A stretch of DNA of 64,000 nt from Paracoccaceae bacterium (GTDB lineage: Bacteria; Pseudomonadota; Alphaproteobacteria; Rhodobacterales; Rhodobacteraceae). The DNA is taken from positions 310,001 through 374,000 of the forward strand of contig SDAL01000002.1 of the NCBI GenBank assembly GCA_004153385.1. Direction: 5' to 3'. The notes under the pieces are model-generated. The model did no database searches. It had not been told where the DNA came from and was given only the letters and a program-made list of their open reading frames with translations. How positions within the stretch are numbered: position 1 is the stretch's first letter; every line of letters starts with the position of its first letter. The translations under genes and the position numbers were made by a program. This document shows, piece after piece, positions 23,440 to 34,289 of the stretch.

Positions 23440-24366
23440 CTATGCCCCGATCCCGTTCGCAAACACGGCGCGCTGGTTTTTCTTTATAAATGTCCAGGCG
23501 ATAAAGCGGCTGGTTTTCTGGCCTTGTGCCATTTCGACGACCTTGTAATCCGCAACACCGGCTTTGGTCAAAATCCGGTGGAGGGGTTGGAGGTTGTCTT
23601 TTTTTGACACCAACGAGGTAAACCACAGGCACTGGTCGGCAAAGCTGACGCTTTGTTCGACCATGCGGGCCACAAACTTTATCTCGCCACCGGGACACCA
23701 GAGTTCAGCGTTTTGCCCCCCGAAGTTGAGTTTCGTCGAGCGCCCTTTGCGAAGGTTCGCCCATTTGCGGCGGGTCCCTTTGTTCGCTTGTTCAATCGAA
23801 CTGTGGAAAGGTGGGTTGCACAATGTCACATGAAACGCATCGTCGGGCCGGATCACACCGCGAAAAATATTTTCGGGGTCGCTTTGAAGCCTGAGGCTGA
23901 TTGCAAGGCTGTTAAATTCACAAATCTGTTGCGCTGATCTGATCGCGGCTGCATCGATATCGACACCGGTAAAGTGCCAGCCGTATTCGCTCTGGCCTAT
24001 GAGGGGATAGACCAGGCTCGCGCCGGTGCCGATGTCGAGGGCCTTGATGGCGCGCCCGCGGGGAATTTCCTGGTTGTTACTGCCGGCAAGCAGATCCGCA
24101 AGATAATGGATATAGTCGACACGACCCGGAATGGCCGGGCAAAGGTATCCTGCGGGAATATCCCAAAAATCAATATTGTAATGTGTCCTCAGCAAGGCAC
24201 GGTTGAGCATACGCACGGCGCTTGGGTCTTGAAAGTCAATCGTGGTCTGACCGGCGGGATTATTGGTCGTGAAGGCTGCAAGCTCGGGCGTCTGCGCGAT
24301 TAAACGCTCGAAATCGTAGCCTGCCGCGTGTTGATTGCGAGGGTGCAGTTTGGTTTGGATGGCCAT
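23440..24366 (-). CDS. rlmF: 23S rRNA (adenine(1618)-N6)-methyltransferase RlmF
   Basis: A 308-residue SAM-dependent methyltransferase that modifies A1618 of 23S rRNA. The N-terminal KLHPRNQHAAGYDFERLI matches the LHPRN-x-H-x-GYDF start of RlmF. The SAM site is ALDIGTGASLVYPLI (109-123) and the catalytic motif is NPPFHSS (184-190), the adenine-N6 NPPF type. The C-terminal WTF region closes the family pattern. The gene stands alone on the minus strand between the LacI gene and the papain-like operon. Confidence 0.93.
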   Translation of the reverse strand: MAIQTKLHPRNQHAAGYDFERLIAQTPELAAFTTNNPAGQTTIDFQDPSAVRMLNRALLRTHYNIDFWDIPAGYLCPAIPGRVDYIHYLADLLAGSNNQEIPRGRAIKALDIGTGASLVYPLIGQSEYGWHFTGVDIDAAAIRSAQQICEFNSLAISLRLQSDPENIFRGVIRPDDAFHVTLCNPPFHSSIEQANKGTRRKWANLRKGRSTKLNFGGQNAELWCPGGEIKFVARMVEQSVSFADQCLWFTSLVSKKDNLQPLHRILTKAGVADYKVVEMAQGQKTSRFIAWTFIKKNQRAVFANGIGA

Positions 24367-24655: not shown

Positions 24656-26656
24656 TCATAACCGATCGGCAGCCCAGCTTTCGGTGGCTTGTTTTCGAAC
24701 CGAGTTTAGGGAGGCGTTTGAAACATCTTCCAACATCTGATGGCTACGCAGCAGTTCATCGTGAAAAAGATACACCCGCGACAGGAAATGCCCGAACTCA
24801 AGGGAGCCTTCGCCGTTGCGTTCGCCGTTGCCGCTGGTCGAGACCACCACATCACCGCCCCAATCCTGACCACTGTCATTGTTCGGATTGTAAAAATAGA
24901 CCCGCATCATTCCGGTTTGATCTTCGGCGACGCGCAGAATTGCGATGGCGTGCCAGCCAATGAACTGTTGGTTGGGGTCTGTTACCGCGATGCCGGCTGG
25001 CTGGGGATGGCTTAGCGGACGGCCGCCGTTGTGATGGGGGTGATACGTTGCAAAGAAGCGGCGTAGGAAATTATCGTAATCCGTGAGTTTGCCGGTGGCC
25101 ACATCTACGGCAACAGCGCAGTCGCGTGCCACCCACCATCCGTGAAATTCAGGGTTGATCCACCGATGGGGATCGCCATCACGCCCGATGCATAACTGCC
25201 CCATTTTAGCATAAATCCTGTCAAGATGCGCGACCAGCAGCACCGAGACCGGATCAGCATCGATCGGGCCAAAGCCGGCCAGACCAACAGGCAGAGTGGC
25301 GGAATTGATTTCGGTCCCTTCGAAATGCATCAAAACCGCATCAAATTCGGACGCCTGATAAATGATATGAAGCAAATAGTCAGGTTCGACCTGAGACCAC
25401 ATTGCGATCGCGCGCGCCGATTGGCATGTCGGATTTGCGCCTTGTCCAACGCCCAGTGGCTGGCCGATGATCTGCAGAACGCCCGCTAAGATATGCGTTT
25501 CCGGCGGAACGAGTTCACCAAAGCCCAAAGTGATGCGCGCGCGCGCCGACCCCCGTATTTTTTGCCGTAGCTGTCGGTCAAGGGCCGGCACCATAGGCGC
25601 ATGGTGCAGAACACCACGTTCCAGCAACAGCGTCAGACCATACACCGCCTGAGGGGTCGACAGGGTGACGCCCGCGCGGATCAGATCTTCGATCAGGCGG
25701 CGATAGTGTCGCCAGCAATCCAGACCGGTGGTCCCGAGACCCAGCGCTTCCGGCACAAGCGCGCGGTCGCGGTAATCCAGCACATAGAGTAGAAACGTCA
25801 CATGGTAGTCTGAAACAAGGCCGGTATCGTGCATGGCGCGCGCAAAACCCATCGCCTCCCGCGAGAGAGCAGCTTCGTCGAAATGCTCGATCCGTTCAAG
25901 ATAGGCATCAACCCCCGGATCCTCCAATGACGCGACCGTAGGGCCGAACAGAGCGCTCACAAGGCGTTCGGCGCCTAAACGCTCGCTGCCCGGCTCGGTG
26001 CCATTTTCGTTCAGAGCGATCGCAATCTGCGCGATCATGTCCTTGACCACGCCCACCTGAATCGAACGCTGTTCGAGAAGACGCCAGATTTCGCTGACAA
26101 GAGCGCCCAAGACATCCGTCAGGCCGATATGTTCCGAGAGATACCGCAAGATCCGTTGCTTGGTTTCGTGGCGCTCACCTAACGCACGTGCCGCCTCGTC
26201 AGACTGCCCGAAGATATCGCGCAGATTAAGGGCCAAGACCTGTGTCAGGAAATGCCTTGCGGTGTCTTGATGCAAGTTGCGATGACGCATCGCACCGGTG
26301 GCCACGGCCAGAAACCGGCAGAGGCTTGCGACTTCTATTGCAACAAGCCCCGGGTCTAAGGCAAGCAGTGTATTGGCGGAAATTTGCGGAAGCAGGGCCT
26401 CCGGTGCATCCCAGTCCGAGCCCGCAAACACGCCGGCAATATCCATGGGAACGGCACGTTCGCAGATCACGTCCATCCCGCTGTCTGTCTGCAATAGCTG
26501 CCCGACCACATTCAGAACGGCGTGTTGATATTCCAGTTTTGAACCTAGACCTATCTGTTCAAGCTGTTCGATTTTGATGTCGAGATCAGCAGCGAGCCGG
26601 GCGTTTTGCGCCCGGCTATCGACATTGCTAGATTGGCCGTCGTTGGATGTGCTCAT
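24656..26656 (-). CDS. Large protein with papain-like Cys/His/Asn signature, partner of an ATP-grasp enzyme
   Basis: A 666-residue protein (from ATG at 26656) of no family I can name. The N-terminal 380 residues are helical and acidic. The C-terminal part has a papain-like layout: a cysteine at the start of a helix in GQGANPTCQSARAIAMW (Cys411), a histidine in FIGWHAIAILRV (His569), then an asparagine in YFYNPNNDSGQDWG (Asn590), reminiscent of the HAV...NSWG order in papain. The function could be amide hydrolysis or amide/ester transfer. It has no signal peptide, so it is probably cytoplasmic. The start codon overlaps the stop of the ATP-grasp gene by one base (a TTG lies one codon earlier), so the two are coupled. 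Confidence 0.75.
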   Translation of the reverse strand: MSTSNDGQSSNVDSRAQNARLAADLDIKIEQLEQIGLGSKLEYQHAVLNVVGQLLQTDSGMDVICERAVPMDIAGVFAGSDWDAPEALLPQISANTLLALDPGLVAIEVASLCRFLAVATGAMRHRNLHQDTARHFLTQVLALNLRDIFGQSDEAARALGERHETKQRILRYLSEHIGLTDVLGALVSEIWRLLEQRSIQVGVVKDMIAQIAIALNENGTEPGSERLGAERLVSALFGPTVASLEDPGVDAYLERIEHFDEAALSREAMGFARAMHDTGLVSDYHVTFLLYVLDYRDRALVPEALGLGTTGLDCWRHYRRLIEDLIRAGVTLSTPQAVYGLTLLLERGVLHHAPMVPALDRQLRQKIRGSARARITLGFGELVPPETHILAGVLQIIGQPLGVGQGANPTCQSARAIAMWSQVEPDYLLHIIYQASEFDAVLMHFEGTEINSATLPVGLAGFGPIDADPVSVLLVAHLDRIYAKMGQLCIGRDGDPHRWINPEFHGWWVARDCAVAVDVATGKLTDYDNFLRRFFATYHPHHNGGRPLSHPQPAGIAVTDPNQQFIGWHAIAILRVAEDQTGMMRVYFYNPNNDSGQDWGGDVVVSTSGNGERNGEGSLEFGHFLSRVYLFHDELLRSHQMLEDVSNASLNSVRKQATESWAADRL

Positions 26657-27963
26657 CAAACGTAAAAGTCCAATTCTTCTTGCGCTTTCAGTAGGTCGCG
26701 CAGCTTCAGGGGATCATCACCCGCAAAAAAGACCAGACCCCAATGCGTGCCAAAGGCAGACCTGTCGGGGACGGTTTCTTCGGTAGGTGCGACCAGCTCG
26801 TGGGATTCGAAATACGGATGCTCGGTGGTTTCTTTCGGCATTTCCAGTTTGCTGACCACACGCCGGCGCGGATAAACCCCGAAACAGCCAGCATAGCACG
26901 TCGCATCTTCGACTTCGCGTGGGAAGAAGGCATCGACCTCTTCCTTGGTGCTTTTGGGGTCAAACACCAGAATGGACGCTTGGTAGGCGCTGAAGCCATA
27001 TGCGCGCTCGATCAATTCGAACGCCTTGAACCCCGGTGGGCGATAGGCGACTTCGCCAAAGTACATCTCGCCGTCGGATGTGACGAAGTATTCCGGATGG
27101 ATCTGGCCGAACTTGATGTCGAAGGTCTTGATCAGTTTCTCGATCTGCTTGGTAATCGCGCCTCGCCAGCTCTCCAGTTCCTTGGTGGCCGGCACAAAGA
27201 CAGAGTAGCCCAGCGTCACATATTCGGAAATGTTGAGAAACTTGATTTCCCCGTCATGAACCCAAGCTTCGACAGCAAACTCCCAACCATCAAGATGGCT
27301 TTCCATCAACAAAGGATATTCCTCGTCCGGAATCTTGTCGATATCCTCTATTTCGCGGATCATGCGATGGCCCAAACAGCCGGCCTTATCGAACGCCTTT
27401 ACGTGGATGGGATCGTTCGGGTCGCCGTCAAGCTTGAGCAGCGTCTGGTTGACCCGCTTCATAAAGCGAATGATATCGTCTTTCTCGTAGGCTTCCTCGA
27501 AAATACCGACACGAATACCACCCAGCTGGGCACGGCGCTTCATCAGGGCTTTGTCGCGAAACAGGATAGACTGACCGTACATGCGGGGCTTGTCCATCAG
27601 CACCGAGTTGATCGCGCCCGACCACTCCACGGTTTCTTCAAACAGCGGGATGGCCACATCCACGCCGTCCGCCTTGAGCCGCTGTGCAATTTCCATGGAA
27701 CGGTCGTTCAACCGTGCAAAATCCCAAGAGATAAACGGAATATTGTTCGCTTCGCAGAAATCGGCGGCCCATTCGGGCGCGACCACAACATACCGACGAT
27801 CAAATTTCTGGGCGGCCTTGATCGCATTCACGCTCCAGCCCAGCAGGGCAATATACCCTTTGTCCGGATCTTTGGGTGTTTCGGTTCCACGCACGGAATC
27901 CAGCGTCGGATCGGTCCAGCCGGAGATAACTTGTTCTGTTGGGGCTTGTATTTCCTTGGACAT
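26656..27963 (-). CDS. ATP-grasp domain carboxylate-amine ligase-like protein
   Basis: A 435-residue ATP-grasp protein. A Rossmann-like pre-ATP-grasp domain begins with GYIALLGWSVNAIKAA (36-51). The ATP-grasp core shows the nucleotide lysine in HVKAF (Lys189), MESHLDGWEFAVEAWV (Glu221 onward), then FGQIHPEYFV and YFGEVAYRPPG (Glu304, Arg308), which match the metal- and carboxylate-binding motifs of peptide-forming ligases. Such enzymes activate a carboxylate as acyl-phosphate and join it to an amine. The ATG at 27963 has AGGAG 7 bases upstream; an in-frame ATG 15 bases earlier overlaps that site. It is the first gene of a two-gene operon; the substrates are unknown. Confidence 0.85.
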   Translation of the reverse strand: MSKEIQAPTEQVISGWTDPTLDSVRGTETPKDPDKGYIALLGWSVNAIKAAQKFDRRYVVVAPEWAADFCEANNIPFISWDFARLNDRSMEIAQRLKADGVDVAIPLFEETVEWSGAINSVLMDKPRMYGQSILFRDKALMKRRAQLGGIRVGIFEEAYEKDDIIRFMKRVNQTLLKLDGDPNDPIHVKAFDKAGCLGHRMIREIEDIDKIPDEEYPLLMESHLDGWEFAVEAWVHDGEIKFLNISEYVTLGYSVFVPATKELESWRGAITKQIEKLIKTFDIKFGQIHPEYFVTSDGEMYFGEVAYRPPGFKAFELIERAYGFSAYQASILVFDPKSTKEEVDAFFPREVEDATCYAGCFGVYPRRRVVSKLEMPKETTEHPYFESHELVAPTEETVPDRSAFGTHWGLVFFAGDDPLKLRDLLKAQEELDFYV

Positions 27964-29411: not shown

Positions 29412-31205
29412 TCAGAGAACGTCGTTTCGCCTGAAAATCATGTTGGCGCGTGGGTCCAACGGTAGCGGCTTCGCCCCGCGATCAAGTTGGATCACGGCCT
29501 CTACGCTTGGCAGCCGCCCGCTCTTCGTCGCCAGCTCGACCACCGAGATATGACTCTTGGAAAACTGCTCCATCGACTTGGCGCAGACGTACCGTCGCAT
29601 TCGTCCGCTGTTCAGCTCCTCTATGTCGCAAGATTTTAGTACGCCCGTGTCCATCAGACTGCGGATCGTCCGGATATTGATTCCGAGAATTTTTGCGGCC
29701 CGGGTCGGTCGAACGGTTCCGTGGTGATCGGCAGCGATGACCTCCCGCAGCACGGCGAGCGACACGTGGAAATCCGGGAAACGCGTGGTGGCAGGGTCGA
29801 CTGCATGCAGCGGAAGGTGGTTTCTCAGAATGATTTCGACCACGCGCTCGGTCGGTATGCGGACACGATGCGATGCCGTCGCAATGTCGAGTAGGTCCTC
29901 CGATTTGGGGCGTTCAACGCGCGCCCGCAGCTTCCCAAGGAACCCATCGAGATCGCGTGGATGATACATCGGCGAGGCATTCTTTTCGTCGAAATACTTC
30001 TCAACGAGTCCGGGCTTCGTCAGCTTGGTCATCATGAAACGCTCGACGCCAAGGTGTTTTCCTGCATCGGCGGCGTTCAGGAGGTCATCGAAATCGGTCG
30101 CGATGTCATTGATGATTTCCGTGGGCACGTAGCCGGTCAGTACAAAACCTTGGCCTGACGTTTTCCTCTCCGCGAGCCCCATTGAGGCCAGGCGGCGCGC
30201 CAGCTTCCAGCCAGACATCCCATAGCGCGAGCGCGCCGTCGAAAGCGAATGAACGTATTGTTCCGGGCAAGGTTGGCCCAGAACGATGTAGCCTTCGGAG
30301 ATCGGAAAATTGCGGAAGATGAACTCTCGCACCAGATCACGGATCACATCGAACTGAGGGTCGTCGTCGCGGTGGCGCAACCACTCGAAGAACACGCGAT
30401 AGCGGGTCCGGTAAAGGGTGTTGTCGACCGGATGCGCCCGCTGGATCTCCTTGAGCTTTTCCCTGAAAGCATCTGGTCCGTGACGTAGGACACCATAACC
30501 GGCAGTGCCTGCAGCCGCCCATTGCGCCGGCGTCACTGTTTCTCGCCGGGCTTTCGGGCCAAGGGTCAGCAGGAGCCCCAAGCCCTCGCACGTCTGCGCC
30601 GCAACATGGAAGGGCAACCGGTCGAGCCACGTTTTCCCGGGCCCTTTCTTGATCCTATTTCTCAGGTAGTGCTCGAACAAAAGGTCCTGATCGTTCGCGA
30701 TTTGGGGTTTTGGTGGTGAAAAGCCAGAGGTCAGCTTGATGACGTCGAACCGCTCTCGCGTCCCAGACGACGTGGGCAACGGAGTGAGGTAGCAGCCGTG
30801 CAAGCAGCAGGTGCGGATTGAGGTCAACTGCCATATGCCGAAATGCGCAGCATCGTTTTGGTTTGAGGCGTCTTGCAGGCATTGCGGGCAGCTTTTGAGA
30901 GCGGTTCGGCTGAAGGCCGTGAACTTGATCTCCTCCATGCCCAACCGGAACCAGCCAGGAGAGACTAGCGCAGGTGTGTGGCGATGCAGTTCCGCCTGAT
31001 CGACACCGGCGAGTGAAGCCAATCGCGCGCAATCTTCTTGGTCGCCATTGGATAGTTTCAAATAGTCGATCCCGAAGTCCGACAGAAACATGGCCATGCC
31101 TGACACGCCGTTGCGACGTGCCAAGCGGGATGCGAGAGAGGTTGCGGATTCTCCATTCTGGTGTTTTACATTTAAGGGCAACGGCTTGATTGTCGAAAAC
31201 ATCAT
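29412..31205 (-). CDS. tniQ: TniQ/TnsD-like target-selection protein
   Basis: A 597-residue protein with the TniQ zinc-finger region in its N-terminal third: SPGWFRLGMEEIKFTAFSRTALKSCPQCLQ, then H, GIWQLTSIRTCCLHGCYLTPL (Cys-x2-Cys...Cys-x2-His). The long C-terminal part carries helix-turn-helix-like segments (GYVPTEIIND; TRAAKILGINIRTIRSLMDTGVL), as in TnsD-type proteins that read a fixed chromosomal target. It acts with TnsC to choose the site; the tRNA-Ala gene is the likely target here. The start overlaps the tnsC stop by four bases (ATGA). Confidence 0.9.
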   Translation of the reverse strand: MMFSTIKPLPLNVKHQNGESATSLASRLARRNGVSGMAMFLSDFGIDYLKLSNGDQEDCARLASLAGVDQAELHRHTPALVSPGWFRLGMEEIKFTAFSRTALKSCPQCLQDASNQNDAAHFGIWQLTSIRTCCLHGCYLTPLPTSSGTRERFDVIKLTSGFSPPKPQIANDQDLLFEHYLRNRIKKGPGKTWLDRLPFHVAAQTCEGLGLLLTLGPKARRETVTPAQWAAAGTAGYGVLRHGPDAFREKLKEIQRAHPVDNTLYRTRYRVFFEWLRHRDDDPQFDVIRDLVREFIFRNFPISEGYIVLGQPCPEQYVHSLSTARSRYGMSGWKLARRLASMGLAERKTSGQGFVLTGYVPTEIINDIATDFDDLLNAADAGKHLGVERFMMTKLTKPGLVEKYFDEKNASPMYHPRDLDGFLGKLRARVERPKSEDLLDIATASHRVRIPTERVVEIILRNHLPLHAVDPATTRFPDFHVSLAVLREVIAADHHGTVRPTRAAKILGINIRTIRSLMDTGVLKSCDIEELNSGRMRRYVCAKSMEQFSKSHISVVELATKSGRLPSVEAVIQLDRGAKPLPLDPRANMIFRRNDVL

Positions 31206-32155
31206 GTGCGGTTCTCCCGAGAAAACACCTGGCGGGCGTCGATGCGCATGAAGTCCGGCACGACAAACGGGTTGAACTCGGCATCGCAGGAGGTCCGCCG
31301 ATGGTACGCCCTGATGAAATTGTGCCGGTTCAGTGTCTTCTGGCCATGCAGATAGGCATCCTCGATGGCGTCGAGGATCAGGACGATGGCGATGCCGAAC
31401 TGGTTTGCCGCAGCATGGACCACGCGTTCGCCGTGGGATAATTCCAGAACGTCTTCCTCTGGTTCGAGCTGCGCCAGTTCACAGTAGTTCTCGAGCAGGT
31501 CGAGGATATCATCACCATATGCGGCGGGGGATAGGCTCTCGAACCGAACGGTCCGCATGCGCCGAGCGAGCTGATGGTCGTGGTTGAGGATGTCTTCCAG
31601 CTCGTTTGTGCCCGACAGAATGATCCCAACTGGCCATTCCGGGTCCGTCATCAGAGTCTTCAGCATGGATGTCACTGAATCCAGCTCGTGCTTGGTGCCC
31701 CGCGACGCCAGGTCCTGCGCCTCGTCGAGATGCACGAACAAAACGCGCCGCTCCTTCAGGTGATGTTGGACCAGGTCCCAGATGTACCAAGCATGGCGAT
31801 CGGCACCGATAGGGTAGCCGAGCGCCCGAAGGAGCATCTGCCCGACGAATTTCAGCGTTGCGGGTGATGGTACCCGCAAGCTGATGATGGTTGAATCTCC
31901 GTATCCCTGATCGGCCAGCCTCTTCCTTTCTTGGGCAAGAAGATGGGTGATTGCCGCGCTTTTTCCGGCCCCGGAGTGCCCGGACAGGGCAAGCCCTTGC
32001 GCCTCGCTGATACGATCGGTCTGGATGTCTACGAGCCTTTTCTCAGCGAGGATGGAGAACCCTTCTGCCAGTGGAACGAAGCGCTCGTGATCGACGAAAT
32101 ACGCCTTCAGTTCAGCGACCCGTTGTGCCGCTTGGGTGATCAGATCATTTCCCAT
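31202..32155 (-). CDS. tnsC: TnsC/TniB AAA+ ATPase
   Basis: A 317-residue AAA+ transposition regulator that links the target-selection protein to the TnsAB transposase. Walker A is GHSGAGKSA (59-67) and Walker B VLFVHLDEAQDL; a sensor-like GIILSGTNEL follows. The ATG at 32155 is chosen because it gives MGNDLITQAAQRVAELKAYF, the usual TniB N-terminus, and lies 11 bases inside the tnsB 3' end. The frame stays open to 32356, but that stretch is tnsB coding sequence. It is shorter than Tn7 TnsC and nearer to TniB size. Confidence 0.9.
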   Translation of the reverse strand: MGNDLITQAAQRVAELKAYFVDHERFVPLAEGFSILAEKRLVDIQTDRISEAQGLALSGHSGAGKSAAITHLLAQERKRLADQGYGDSTIISLRVPSPATLKFVGQMLLRALGYPIGADRHAWYIWDLVQHHLKERRVLFVHLDEAQDLASRGTKHELDSVTSMLKTLMTDPEWPVGIILSGTNELEDILNHDHQLARRMRTVRFESLSPAAYGDDILDLLENYCELAQLEPEEDVLELSHGERVVHAAANQFGIAIVLILDAIEDAYLHGQKTLNRHNFIRAYHRRTSCDAEFNPFVVPDFMRIDARQVFSRENRT

Positions 32156-34289
32156 CGTTGAACCCCCAGCGTCTGCGGTTCTTGCGTCTCGTTCGACGCT
32201 CGGAGATCGGCCCGTTATCGTCGCTGTCCGGCTTCCGAGATGTGTCCGTTGGCGAAGTAATGGAGATTGCATCATCGAGCAGGTCGTTGCTCGGCGGCAT
32301 GTGTCCCAGCCGCTGCTGATCAGAGCGGAGCGGATAGTGCAGTGCCGCATCTGCACGGGCGACGTCCACGTCGGTCACATGGAAAGGGGTCAGGGCGCGC
32401 AGCGCGAATGCGCGGCGGTTCGCGTCCGATATCCGCGCGATAGCCCGCTGGACCTTGGGCGCGTCCAACTTCGCAGCACGCGCATGTGCGTGACGAACGG
32501 CCCGGATGCCCTCGCGCAGCTCATCGAAGCTCATGCCCTCAAAGCCGGGCTGATTGGCGAGTGCCGGATACCAAGTAGCTCCGACCTTGACGGCGATCCA
32601 CCCGATGTCCTGCAGATCGACCCTGATTTCCACCTCCCGTATGGGGGAGTGCAGATAGGCTTCCCGCAGCGCCTCGCAGCTATAGCTAAGCCCCGAGAAC
32701 AGTACGCCCTCGTCGTTGAGCTTCTGGGGCATCGGCCTGCCGAATGCCTTCCTGAGGGTCAAACCATCCGGCACCGGGGGCGTCCCGTGTTCAGCCACAA
32801 GCCGCTTCCAAGCTGCATTCGGGGTTTCCCCCTTCAGCGAGCCGTGTGGCTGGTTGTGATAGATATCAACGATATAGGTGAGCAGGACCTTGATCAGGTC
32901 GTCGTCACACAGACAGGCGAGCATTTCTGAAGGATAGTCACCGCGATCAACAGTGTCGAAGAAGGTCCGGCCAGCCAAGAGCGGCATGAGCTGATGCCCA
33001 AGAGTGCGGAAGAAGGACTCAATGTGCCCCCGCATCCAAGGAATTCCGGCGGGCGGCAAATGTGACGTGACCCCAAGCGACGCTACCGTTGCCTGGAAGG
33101 CATCCGAAACGAAGGCAGGCCCCATGTCGGTCACGAGGGTCCCGATCCCGCCATGATGATGCCATGTGCTCTCGCATTCGGCCGCCTGAGCCAGCGGGGT
33201 CTTGTCCTCGAAAATCTGCCGCAGCGCGCGGATCGCATCATCCGAGTTTGGATTGTCGGCCAGTCGCATCGAAACGACACATTTCGTGGCGCAGTCGATC
33301 GCAAGATACATCCAGCGCCGCCCTGTCTCGAATTTCTTCTGCCGATCCGGCGGCAGGTGTTCCCAGATGCCTGTCAGCGTCAGTAACGACATGACGTCGA
33401 GCTTGTTTTCATCCATCTCGACCCGCTCCATGGGGCGCACGACATCGGGACCGTTGCTGCTCATGGCGAATTTCCTGGCGGCCGCAGACGCGCCAAATCG
33501 TTTTGCGCAGACGTAGAATGGGTCTGCCGAGTCCAATCGGCGTTTAACGCTGGAGGCAGAGGGGATCGAGAGCAGCGTTGCCCCCGCGCTGGTTCTGCGC
33601 GCGTTCTCGTCGGCGAACAGCGCCCGAGTCTCCTGAATAGACTGGACTTTGGTTGGTCGCTGCGTGTCGGCGTAAATCTCGATGACCTGGTTCATCAGGG
33701 CTTCCGCCTTTGGACACCAGCGCCGGCTCCGATTGCCGGATAGGTGAGTGGCCGGAATGAGCGAAAGTGCAGAGTAGCCTGCAGCCTGATAGGAGCGGAC
33801 CCACTGCAAGACTGTCCGGCTTCCCGGCAGCTTGCGGATTTTTATTTCCTTACCCGGTCGTATCTTGGCAAAGGCCGCTGCGCCTTCACCAACGAGCCTG
33901 GCCGTCACTGATGCGAGCTGCGCTTTGGCCTGCTCATAGGCCCGCTGCGTGCGTTTGACGAGGCCCGCAGCTTCGAGAGCCAGGAAGGCGTCACAGACGG
34001 CCTTCCGCCAGATCACCAGCCGTGCGGTCTTTTCCGACAGTTCGCTGATGACCTGCACAGGTTTATCGCGATGGGCCTCTTGGGTGGCTCGATCAAAATA
34101 CCCGGCAAAGTAGGTCGTGTCCGGCCGACGCATCATCTCGGCGAGCTCTTGGTGGGAAAACGCCTCAGTAATTCCCGGCTGGCCGACGCGCTCGAAGGTG
34201 CCGCCTTTGTCGTCGATTTCTAGCGGACGCATGGCGACGCCTGCCGTGGTGATCATGTCGGAGTTCGAGAAGCGAAAACGCAGGGTCAT
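32145..34289 (-). CDS. tnsB: TnsB/TniA DDE transposase
   Basis: A 714-residue integrase-fold transposase that cuts the 3' ends of the element and joins them to the target. The catalytic DDE triad is visible in VEMDENKLDV (first Asp), LVTDMGPAFV (second Asp) and WMRGHIESFFRTLGH (Glu). It has N-terminal DNA-binding helices and a C-terminal basic tail (ERRTRRKNRRRW) that may contact TnsC, as in Mu and Tn7 families. The start overlaps the tnsA stop by four bases. It would bind the repeats at both element ends. Confidence 0.92.
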   Translation of the reverse strand: MTLRFRFSNSDMITTAGVAMRPLEIDDKGGTFERVGQPGITEAFSHQELAEMMRRPDTTYFAGYFDRATQEAHRDKPVQVISELSEKTARLVIWRKAVCDAFLALEAAGLVKRTQRAYEQAKAQLASVTARLVGEGAAAFAKIRPGKEIKIRKLPGSRTVLQWVRSYQAAGYSALSLIPATHLSGNRSRRWCPKAEALMNQVIEIYADTQRPTKVQSIQETRALFADENARRTSAGATLLSIPSASSVKRRLDSADPFYVCAKRFGASAAARKFAMSSNGPDVVRPMERVEMDENKLDVMSLLTLTGIWEHLPPDRQKKFETGRRWMYLAIDCATKCVVSMRLADNPNSDDAIRALRQIFEDKTPLAQAAECESTWHHHGGIGTLVTDMGPAFVSDAFQATVASLGVTSHLPPAGIPWMRGHIESFFRTLGHQLMPLLAGRTFFDTVDRGDYPSEMLACLCDDDLIKVLLTYIVDIYHNQPHGSLKGETPNAAWKRLVAEHGTPPVPDGLTLRKAFGRPMPQKLNDEGVLFSGLSYSCEALREAYLHSPIREVEIRVDLQDIGWIAVKVGATWYPALANQPGFEGMSFDELREGIRAVRHAHARAAKLDAPKVQRAIARISDANRRAFALRALTPFHVTDVDVARADAALHYPLRSDQQRLGHMPPSNDLLDDAISITSPTDTSRKPDSDDNGPISERRTRRKNRRRWGFNDGK

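Follow-up and report, generated by a model that had tools for sequence, protein, structure and literature searches.

ATP-grasp ligases make an acyl phosphate that is then attacked by an amine, while enzymes of the papain fold pass through an acyl thioester, which is then hydrolysed or transferred, and in glutathionylspermidine synthetase/amidase an ATP-grasp-type ligase is coupled to a Cys-His amidase. From the biology of ectoine it is known that orphan (solitary) genes for the ectoine synthase EctC exist outside ectABC clusters, and their role is given as unknown (PMC5924519, PMC6344544), the question being called unresolved in the first of them (PMC5924519). Here we describe a gene pair from a Paracoccaceae bacterium, on the reverse strand of a 64,000-nucleotide stretch (GenBank assembly GCA_004153385.1, contig SDAL01000002.1, positions 310,001 to 374,000; this whole stretch is termed the window, and coordinates refer to it), consisting of a gene for an ATP-grasp ligase of 435 amino acids (P0002, 26656..27963 (-)) and one for a papain-like protein of 666 amino acids with a long helical N-terminal part (P0001, 24656..26656 (-)). 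The former is recognised from its reading frame, its Pfam match and its closest solved folds, which are L-amino acid ligases, and the latter from its reading frame, alignment and predicted fold. The kinds of enzyme combined here, an amide ligase and a papain-like enzyme, are known; what is new is that the second family is unnamed and that the pair shows an unexpected link to ectoine, and no published description of it was found in full-text searches of an open-licence collection. We tentatively propose that the two genes may encode a mobile module, working in the cytosol, by which an amide-bonded metabolite of salt stress is made and processed.

The two genes are paired far beyond chance. In a scan of named genomes, 80 loci were kept from 558 relatives found in the first 590 stretches (L and G numbers below are our handles for loci and genomes), and an ATP-grasp gene adjoins the papain-like gene in 75 of these, upstream in 74 and downstream in one, with three of the 75 cut by a contig end. 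The remaining five comprise three with C-terminal ligase remnants only and two with no adjacent ligase; a full-length ATP-grasp gene lies elsewhere in all five genomes, and in two of them it stands beside a second papain-like gene. At L054, L059 and L067 the adjacent ATP-grasp gene has decayed to C-terminal remnants, the papain-like gene is intact, and a full ligase gene is present elsewhere in the genome. The gap between ligase and papain-like gene is nominally 30 bases or fewer in 61 of 74 loci. Within a sample of 295 genomes of the window's family (the family sample), the papain-like gene occurs in 12 and the ATP-grasp gene in 13 (the same 12 and G287), and the two are side by side in 12/12; among the 398 genomes of the phylum sample, which was searched starting from the ATP-grasp gene, 11 carry that gene (one being the window's own), and the papain-like gene is present in the other 10/10. 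The coupling proposed by the first-pass annotation is thereby borne out, both claimed reading frames are present in the window, and the stop codon of P0002 (TGA) does overlap the start codon of P0001 (ATG), by base 26656 (26656..26656 (-)). Its description of a two-gene operon holds as regards adjacency and fails as regards a strictly closed unit, given extra papain-like genes without an adjacent ligase and five loci at which the ligase is lost or decayed.

The partners also share much of their history. Across 89 adjacent pairs the identity matrices of the two proteins correlate (Spearman 0.65, against a maximum of 0.07 in 500 permutations), and over the 88 pairs other than the window's, identity to the window proteins ranges from 69 to 95% for the ligase and from 45 to 87% for the papain-like protein. 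The papain-like proteins of L006-L014 are 69-71% identical to P0001, yet their ligases are only 69-73% identical to P0002, whereas L040, L120 and L121 have ligases 86-87% identical to P0002 and papain-like proteins 45-50% identical to P0001; with this break in the correlation, the window lineage has thus exchanged one partner of the pair. Carriers, judged by name, include alpha-, gamma- and delta/epsilon-type proteobacteria and actinobacteria, making this a strongly conserved two-enzyme family across several bacterial groups in which the second protein has no named family. Most likely, the pair has moved together between distantly related bacteria as a horizontally mobile module. A search of a plasmid collection returned a single match, in a Halomonas record of 1.8 Mb whose genes are not annotated there. 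Clustering of neighbours within 8 kb yielded no conserved third gene, save for synteny in the Halomonadaceae, using crude gene calling in which homologues of P0001 and P0002 were broken up over wrong frames and the zinc peptidase gene of L063 (see below) was overlooked.

The predicted model of P0002 (mean predicted local distance difference test score, pLDDT, 79) supports its membership of the ATP-grasp ligases, as first annotated, and places it in the fold group of the L-amino acid ligases. Its best match among solved folds is the L-amino acid ligase 3vot (BL00235; Z 27.3, root-mean-square deviation (rmsd) 3.8, 343 residues), followed by 4dim (annotated as a phosphoribosylglycinamide synthetase, Z 26.0) and RizA (4wd3, Z 25.9). 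The Pfam model ATP-grasp_4 is matched at residues 217-306 with 27.1 bits, only just passing the cut-off of 27, and the nearest NCBIfam model, PRK07206, stays far below its own cut-off (26.5 bits vs 302). Glu291 (codon 27091..27093 (-)), at a position that we take to be a magnesium ligand in L-amino acid ligases, aligns with the same residue in RizA and BL00235, as do Glu304 and Arg308, the ends of the Glu-x3-Arg of the ATP-grasp site (codons 27040..27054 (-)). These three residues, and Lys138, Lys177 and Lys189, are invariant in 102/102 rows of an alignment of P0002 homologues, from which hits shorter than 330 residues were left out. By analogy, P0002 would catalyse ATP-dependent amide formation, a putative L-amino acid ligase reaction.

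For P0001, the conserved residues speak more clearly than the fold. Cys411, His569 and Asn590, which the first reading had put forward as a papain-order set, are found at those residue numbers, and Gln405 can be added to give Gln, Cys, His and Asn in papain order. Gln405 to Cys411 (codons 25424..25444 (-)) form a Gln-x5-Cys element, corresponding to the oxyanion Gln and nucleophile of papain-like enzymes, whose spacing equals that of papain Gln19 and Cys25, and the pattern QGxxxxC is visible in comparison with papain-family sequences. Together with His569 (codon 24950..24952 (-)) and Asn590 (codon 24887..24889 (-)), these residues are invariant in 70/70 aligned papain-like proteins and in 105/105 rows of a broader alignment in which stand-alone paralogues are also represented; it is made up of P0001 and 104 distinct hits, the window's own copy among them, after hits with fewer than 500 aligned residues and identical repeats had been dropped. 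The predicted model (mean pLDDT 86, falling below 50 around residues 407-409, in the cysteine region, and 502-509) falls into an all-helical part, residues 1-374 (25535..26656 (-)), which has only short HEAT/ARM/TPR-like fold matches and, as had been claimed, belongs to no known family (no Pfam match), and a predicted papain-like catalytic region, residues 375-666 (24659..25534 (-)), assigned from the model and the invariant residues.

Fold comparisons of this model lean weakly towards calpain and staphopain. Foldseek returned no match in the PDB at E <= 0.001, its top row being staphopain C (E 0.30, probability 0.60), and in VIA nine of the top 13 rows are calpain cores, covering residues 372-640, the rest being short helical pieces; the best of them, 6bjd (Z 7.6, 203 residues, rmsd 4.3), lies below the tool's safe Z of 8. 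A fold search of BFVD likewise gave no match at E <= 0.001, with two papain-type viral proteins among the weak rows. At the level of sequence, P0001 has nothing above cut-off in Pfam (a single chance hit lies below it) and no match at E <= 10 to NCBIfam or PADLOC models, and PDB searches with the protein and its alignment gave chance hits only. When the C-terminal part was compared by hhalign with a C1 profile built from four sequences, the probability was 0.2 out of 100 (0.1 for the N-terminal control), both profiles being shallow, so that descent from C1 is neither shown nor excluded by it. No sequence-profile match to a described family of clan CL0125/MEROPS CA was thus obtained by Pfam, NCBIfam, PDB profile or C1 hhalign, nor, in agreement with the first-pass annotation, did Pfam, NCBIfam or PADLOC place P0001 in a family of known unrelated function. 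Of the papain fold that had been predicted, the residue order stands and the fold itself is suggested; given the weak fold scores and the negative profile comparison, we call P0001 papain-like, on its residue set and this hint of fold, and not a proven member of the clan. It is probably cytosolic, no signal peptide being seen on reading the sequence.

A second association, missed by the first-pass annotation, concerns ectoine. EctC is found above cut-off in 90 of the 295 family genomes, but in 12/12 of those with the papain-like gene (hypergeometric P 3.8e-7, a value that ignores relatedness and habitat) and in 13/13 of those with the ATP-grasp gene. Similarly, 48 of 49 named genomes with the papain-like gene contain EctC, many of the 49 being Halomonadaceae, where ectoine is usual, and the exception (L046) being an incomplete 1.2 Mb genome; these genomes derive from 50 loci (all those outside Rhodobacterales-type names and four relatives of the window), with L004 left out, and up to three of them may overlap the family sample. 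A shared salty habitat could explain part of this association. The strongest form of that argument, that the pair is a habitat marker only, unrelated to ectoine, both merely occurring in salt-tolerant bacteria, would suit the mostly marine or saline genera to which the named carriers belong (judged from names), the finding that 25 of 30 EctC genes examined belong to a usual ect cluster apart from the pair, and the many EctC carriers, indeed the majority, that lack the pair. However, it accounts poorly for the excess of EctC among carriers over the background of the same family, and for the EctC genes of one separate clade that, in a Halomonas and two alphaproteobacterial genomes, adjoin the ATP-grasp gene, and we consider it unlikely, albeit a serious contender.

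This island-borne EctC deserves closer description. EctC adjacency was searched across all fetched loci, and three places have an EctC gene next to that of the ATP-grasp ligase: L004, L153 (G287, without the papain-like gene) and L086/L188 (G004); at a fourth, L048/L195, a C-terminal EctC remnant lies just upstream of the pair. When 30 EctC hits were viewed together with flanks of 1.5 kb, an EctA- or EctB-like gene was seen near 25 of them and near none of the other five, these being the gene of G004 and those of G695, G705, G710 and G693, four genomes that carry the pair and in each of which the solitary EctC is the sole full-length EctC hit. Around the solitary full-length EctC genes of pair-bearing genomes at L192, L193, L194 and L196, no EctA- or EctB-like gene is present in the stretches read. 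In the EctC tree the three island genes form one clade (100/98), next to the solitary EctCs of G695, G705 and G710 (93/93), and the island proteins keep all 25 residues that are invariant in 27 other EctCs. A further gene that had escaped earlier notice, 75-100% identical to the zinc peptidase gene of L004, occurs at five places (L004, L030, L050, L063 and L153), at all of them no more than 4 kb from the gene for the ATP-grasp ligase or the papain-like protein, and three of the five were confirmed as Peptidase_Mx. On reading, transposase-like genes surround the EctC, zinc peptidase and ATP-grasp genes of L004 (1-12362) and L153 (1-281), in the manner of a mobile island.

Building on the observed gene pairing, invariant residues, ATP-grasp fold and EctC association, we suggest the following mechanism. 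At the cost of ATP, P0002 would turn a carboxylate into an activated acyl phosphate and join it to an amine, the reaction of L-amino acid ligases. Cys411 of P0001 would attack that amide or a related one, with His569 and Asn590 holding the cysteine and Gln405 as oxyanion helper, and the acyl group would then be handed to a second acceptor or to water, the target being set by the N-terminal helical part of P0001 and its paralogues. The product would be a small amide-bonded salt-stress metabolite, made from or alongside the ectoine pathway, on which the dedicated EctC and the zinc peptidase of the same islands may sometimes act further. Making and processing a small amide is the simplest reading because the two enzymes are co-inherited, apparently cytosolic and without a constant third gene, and a salt-stress metabolite is our best guess because of the EctC association. 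Several points weigh against this proposal. Besides what has been said of the P value and of the many Halomonadaceae, the papain-like gene is absent from 78 of the 90 family genomes with EctC, EctC adjacency is confined to four places, and the window genome has one EctC, in its own ectABC-type cluster (which we take to run ectA-ectB-ectC-ask-like) at 2.03 Mb on contig C1, far from the pair on contig C2. The window pair thus lies neither within nor beside an ectABC cluster, and at other loci the EctC genes next to the ligase are all solitary. Moreover, in single lineages paralogues of P0001 adjoin transporter genes, a GCS2-like ligase or further genes, a sign of more than one target.

The EctC association nevertheless yields a testable claim on salt-stress chemistry and a handle on the orphan EctC question. 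A bolder version, which we regard as a long shot, is that the ligase, the papain-like transferase, the solitary EctC clade and the zinc peptidase form one mobile pathway, in which the ligase, with the Cys enzyme, would build an amide resembling N-acyl-diaminobutyrate or glutamine, and ring closure to a cyclic amidine by the solitary EctC would then yield either a new osmolyte of the ectoine type or an EctA-independent route to ectoine. If true, it would also give the orphan EctC a function.

An alternative to a small-molecule product is reversible protein modification, whereby amino acids or short peptides would be attached to a protein by the ligase and removed or moved by the papain-like protein, the HEAT/ARM-like arm of the latter serving as protein binder. 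We think this rather improbable. The N-terminal model of P0001 does match helical-repeat proteins only, many of which are protein binders, but these matches are short and have Z below 8, the tool's noise level. In three genomes of one genus, 3 to 6 papain-like matches (of the six, one covers 56 residues) stand against 2 or 3 ATP-grasp genes, so that one ligase may serve several papain-like partners, as would be expected for different protein targets. On the other hand, a conserved third gene whose product might serve as substrate was not found within 8 kb by our crude gene calling, and the nearest ligase folds work on free amino acids.

In some genomes extra papain-like genes lie apart from any ATP-grasp gene. 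At L137 (8025-13841) and L142 (7413-12868) the paralogue is accompanied by a GCS2-like ligase gene overlapping one for an AstE/AspA-like hydrolase, and in L142 also by a Memo-like gene; on reading, these neighbourhoods again look like an amide-making and amide-breaking set. At L143 (8280-15532) and L146 (3941-9870) a stand-alone paralogue lies directly behind an ATP-binding cassette (ABC) transporter operon, identified by Pfam SBP_bac_8, ABC_tran and BPD_transp_1, which we take to be of polyamine type; in L146 the paralogue starts within 4 bases of the permease stop. If that type is right, the neighbourhood would fit turnover of a polyamine conjugate, the ligase making an amino acid-polyamine amide and the Cys enzyme cleaving it, by the same logic of ligase and Cys-His amidase as in glutathionylspermidine synthetase/amidase. 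However, the transporter is a neighbour in two genomes of one genus only, other copies lack it, and no glutathionylspermidine synthetase or CHAP model is among the Pfam hits, so that we consider this explanation very unlikely. Least credible of all is a role for P0001 as a cytosolic protease or peptidase of the ordinary kind, near the ligase through a shared nutrient pathway (dipeptide salvage) and with no joint reaction: its catalytic order is that of C1/C2 peptidases, its best folds are calpain cores and staphopain, and stand-alone copies exist, but co-inheritance and near-overlap with a ligase would be unusual for a general protease.

Two further candidates were rejected. Phytochelatin synthase (Pfam PF05023) is matched neither by P0001 nor anywhere in the genome of the window, and no anti-phage defence family of PADLOC-DB 2.0.0 is matched by P0001 or P0002 at E <= 10.

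Directly upstream of the window pair are TniQ-, TniB- and TniA-like transposition genes (29412-34289 (-)), of which Pfam matched TniQ and TniB, with rve and Mu-transpos_C just below cut-off. Their adjacency is what is seen; carriage of the pair by a Tni-like transposon is a candidate explanation, and no transposon ends enclosing the pair were found, flanking repeats being merely 17-26 nt and likely due to chance. Downstream lies an RNA methyltransferase gene (23440-24366 (-); Pfam Methyltransf_10, 392 bits). This flanking gene was not found in G259, of the same genus, or in G287.

Set against known systems, P0002 resembles the L-amino acid ligases 3vot (BL00235), 4wd3 (RizA) and BacD/YwfE in fold over nearly its whole chain (Z 27.3, 25.9 and 22.5) and in its aligned Glu/Glu/Arg site residues, but it is only 15-19% identical to them in structural alignments, and its gene is clustered with a papain-like gene. 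P0001 shares with papain-like cysteine peptidases (calpain core, staphopain, C1) the Gln-x5-Cys, His, Asn order and, among its fold matches, the calpain cores that fill nine of the top 13 VIA rows and the staphopain C that heads the Foldseek rows; it differs in having no Pfam peptidase match, a negative profile comparison, Z of at most 7.6, a Foldseek E of 0.30, an extra helical region of about 370 residues and a location that, on reading, is cytosolic. The combination of an amide ligase and a Cys-His amidase recalls glutathionylspermidine synthetase/amidase, whereas here there are two genes, not one, and its GSP synthetase and CHAP domains are absent from P0001 and P0002 (Pfam, E <= 1). Finally, like the orphan EctC genes of PMC5924519 and PMC6344544, those described here lie outside ectABC, in this case beside an ATP-grasp gene, a link to a ligase or papain-like protein that the available parts of those sources do not give, and they retain all residues invariant in 27 other EctCs.

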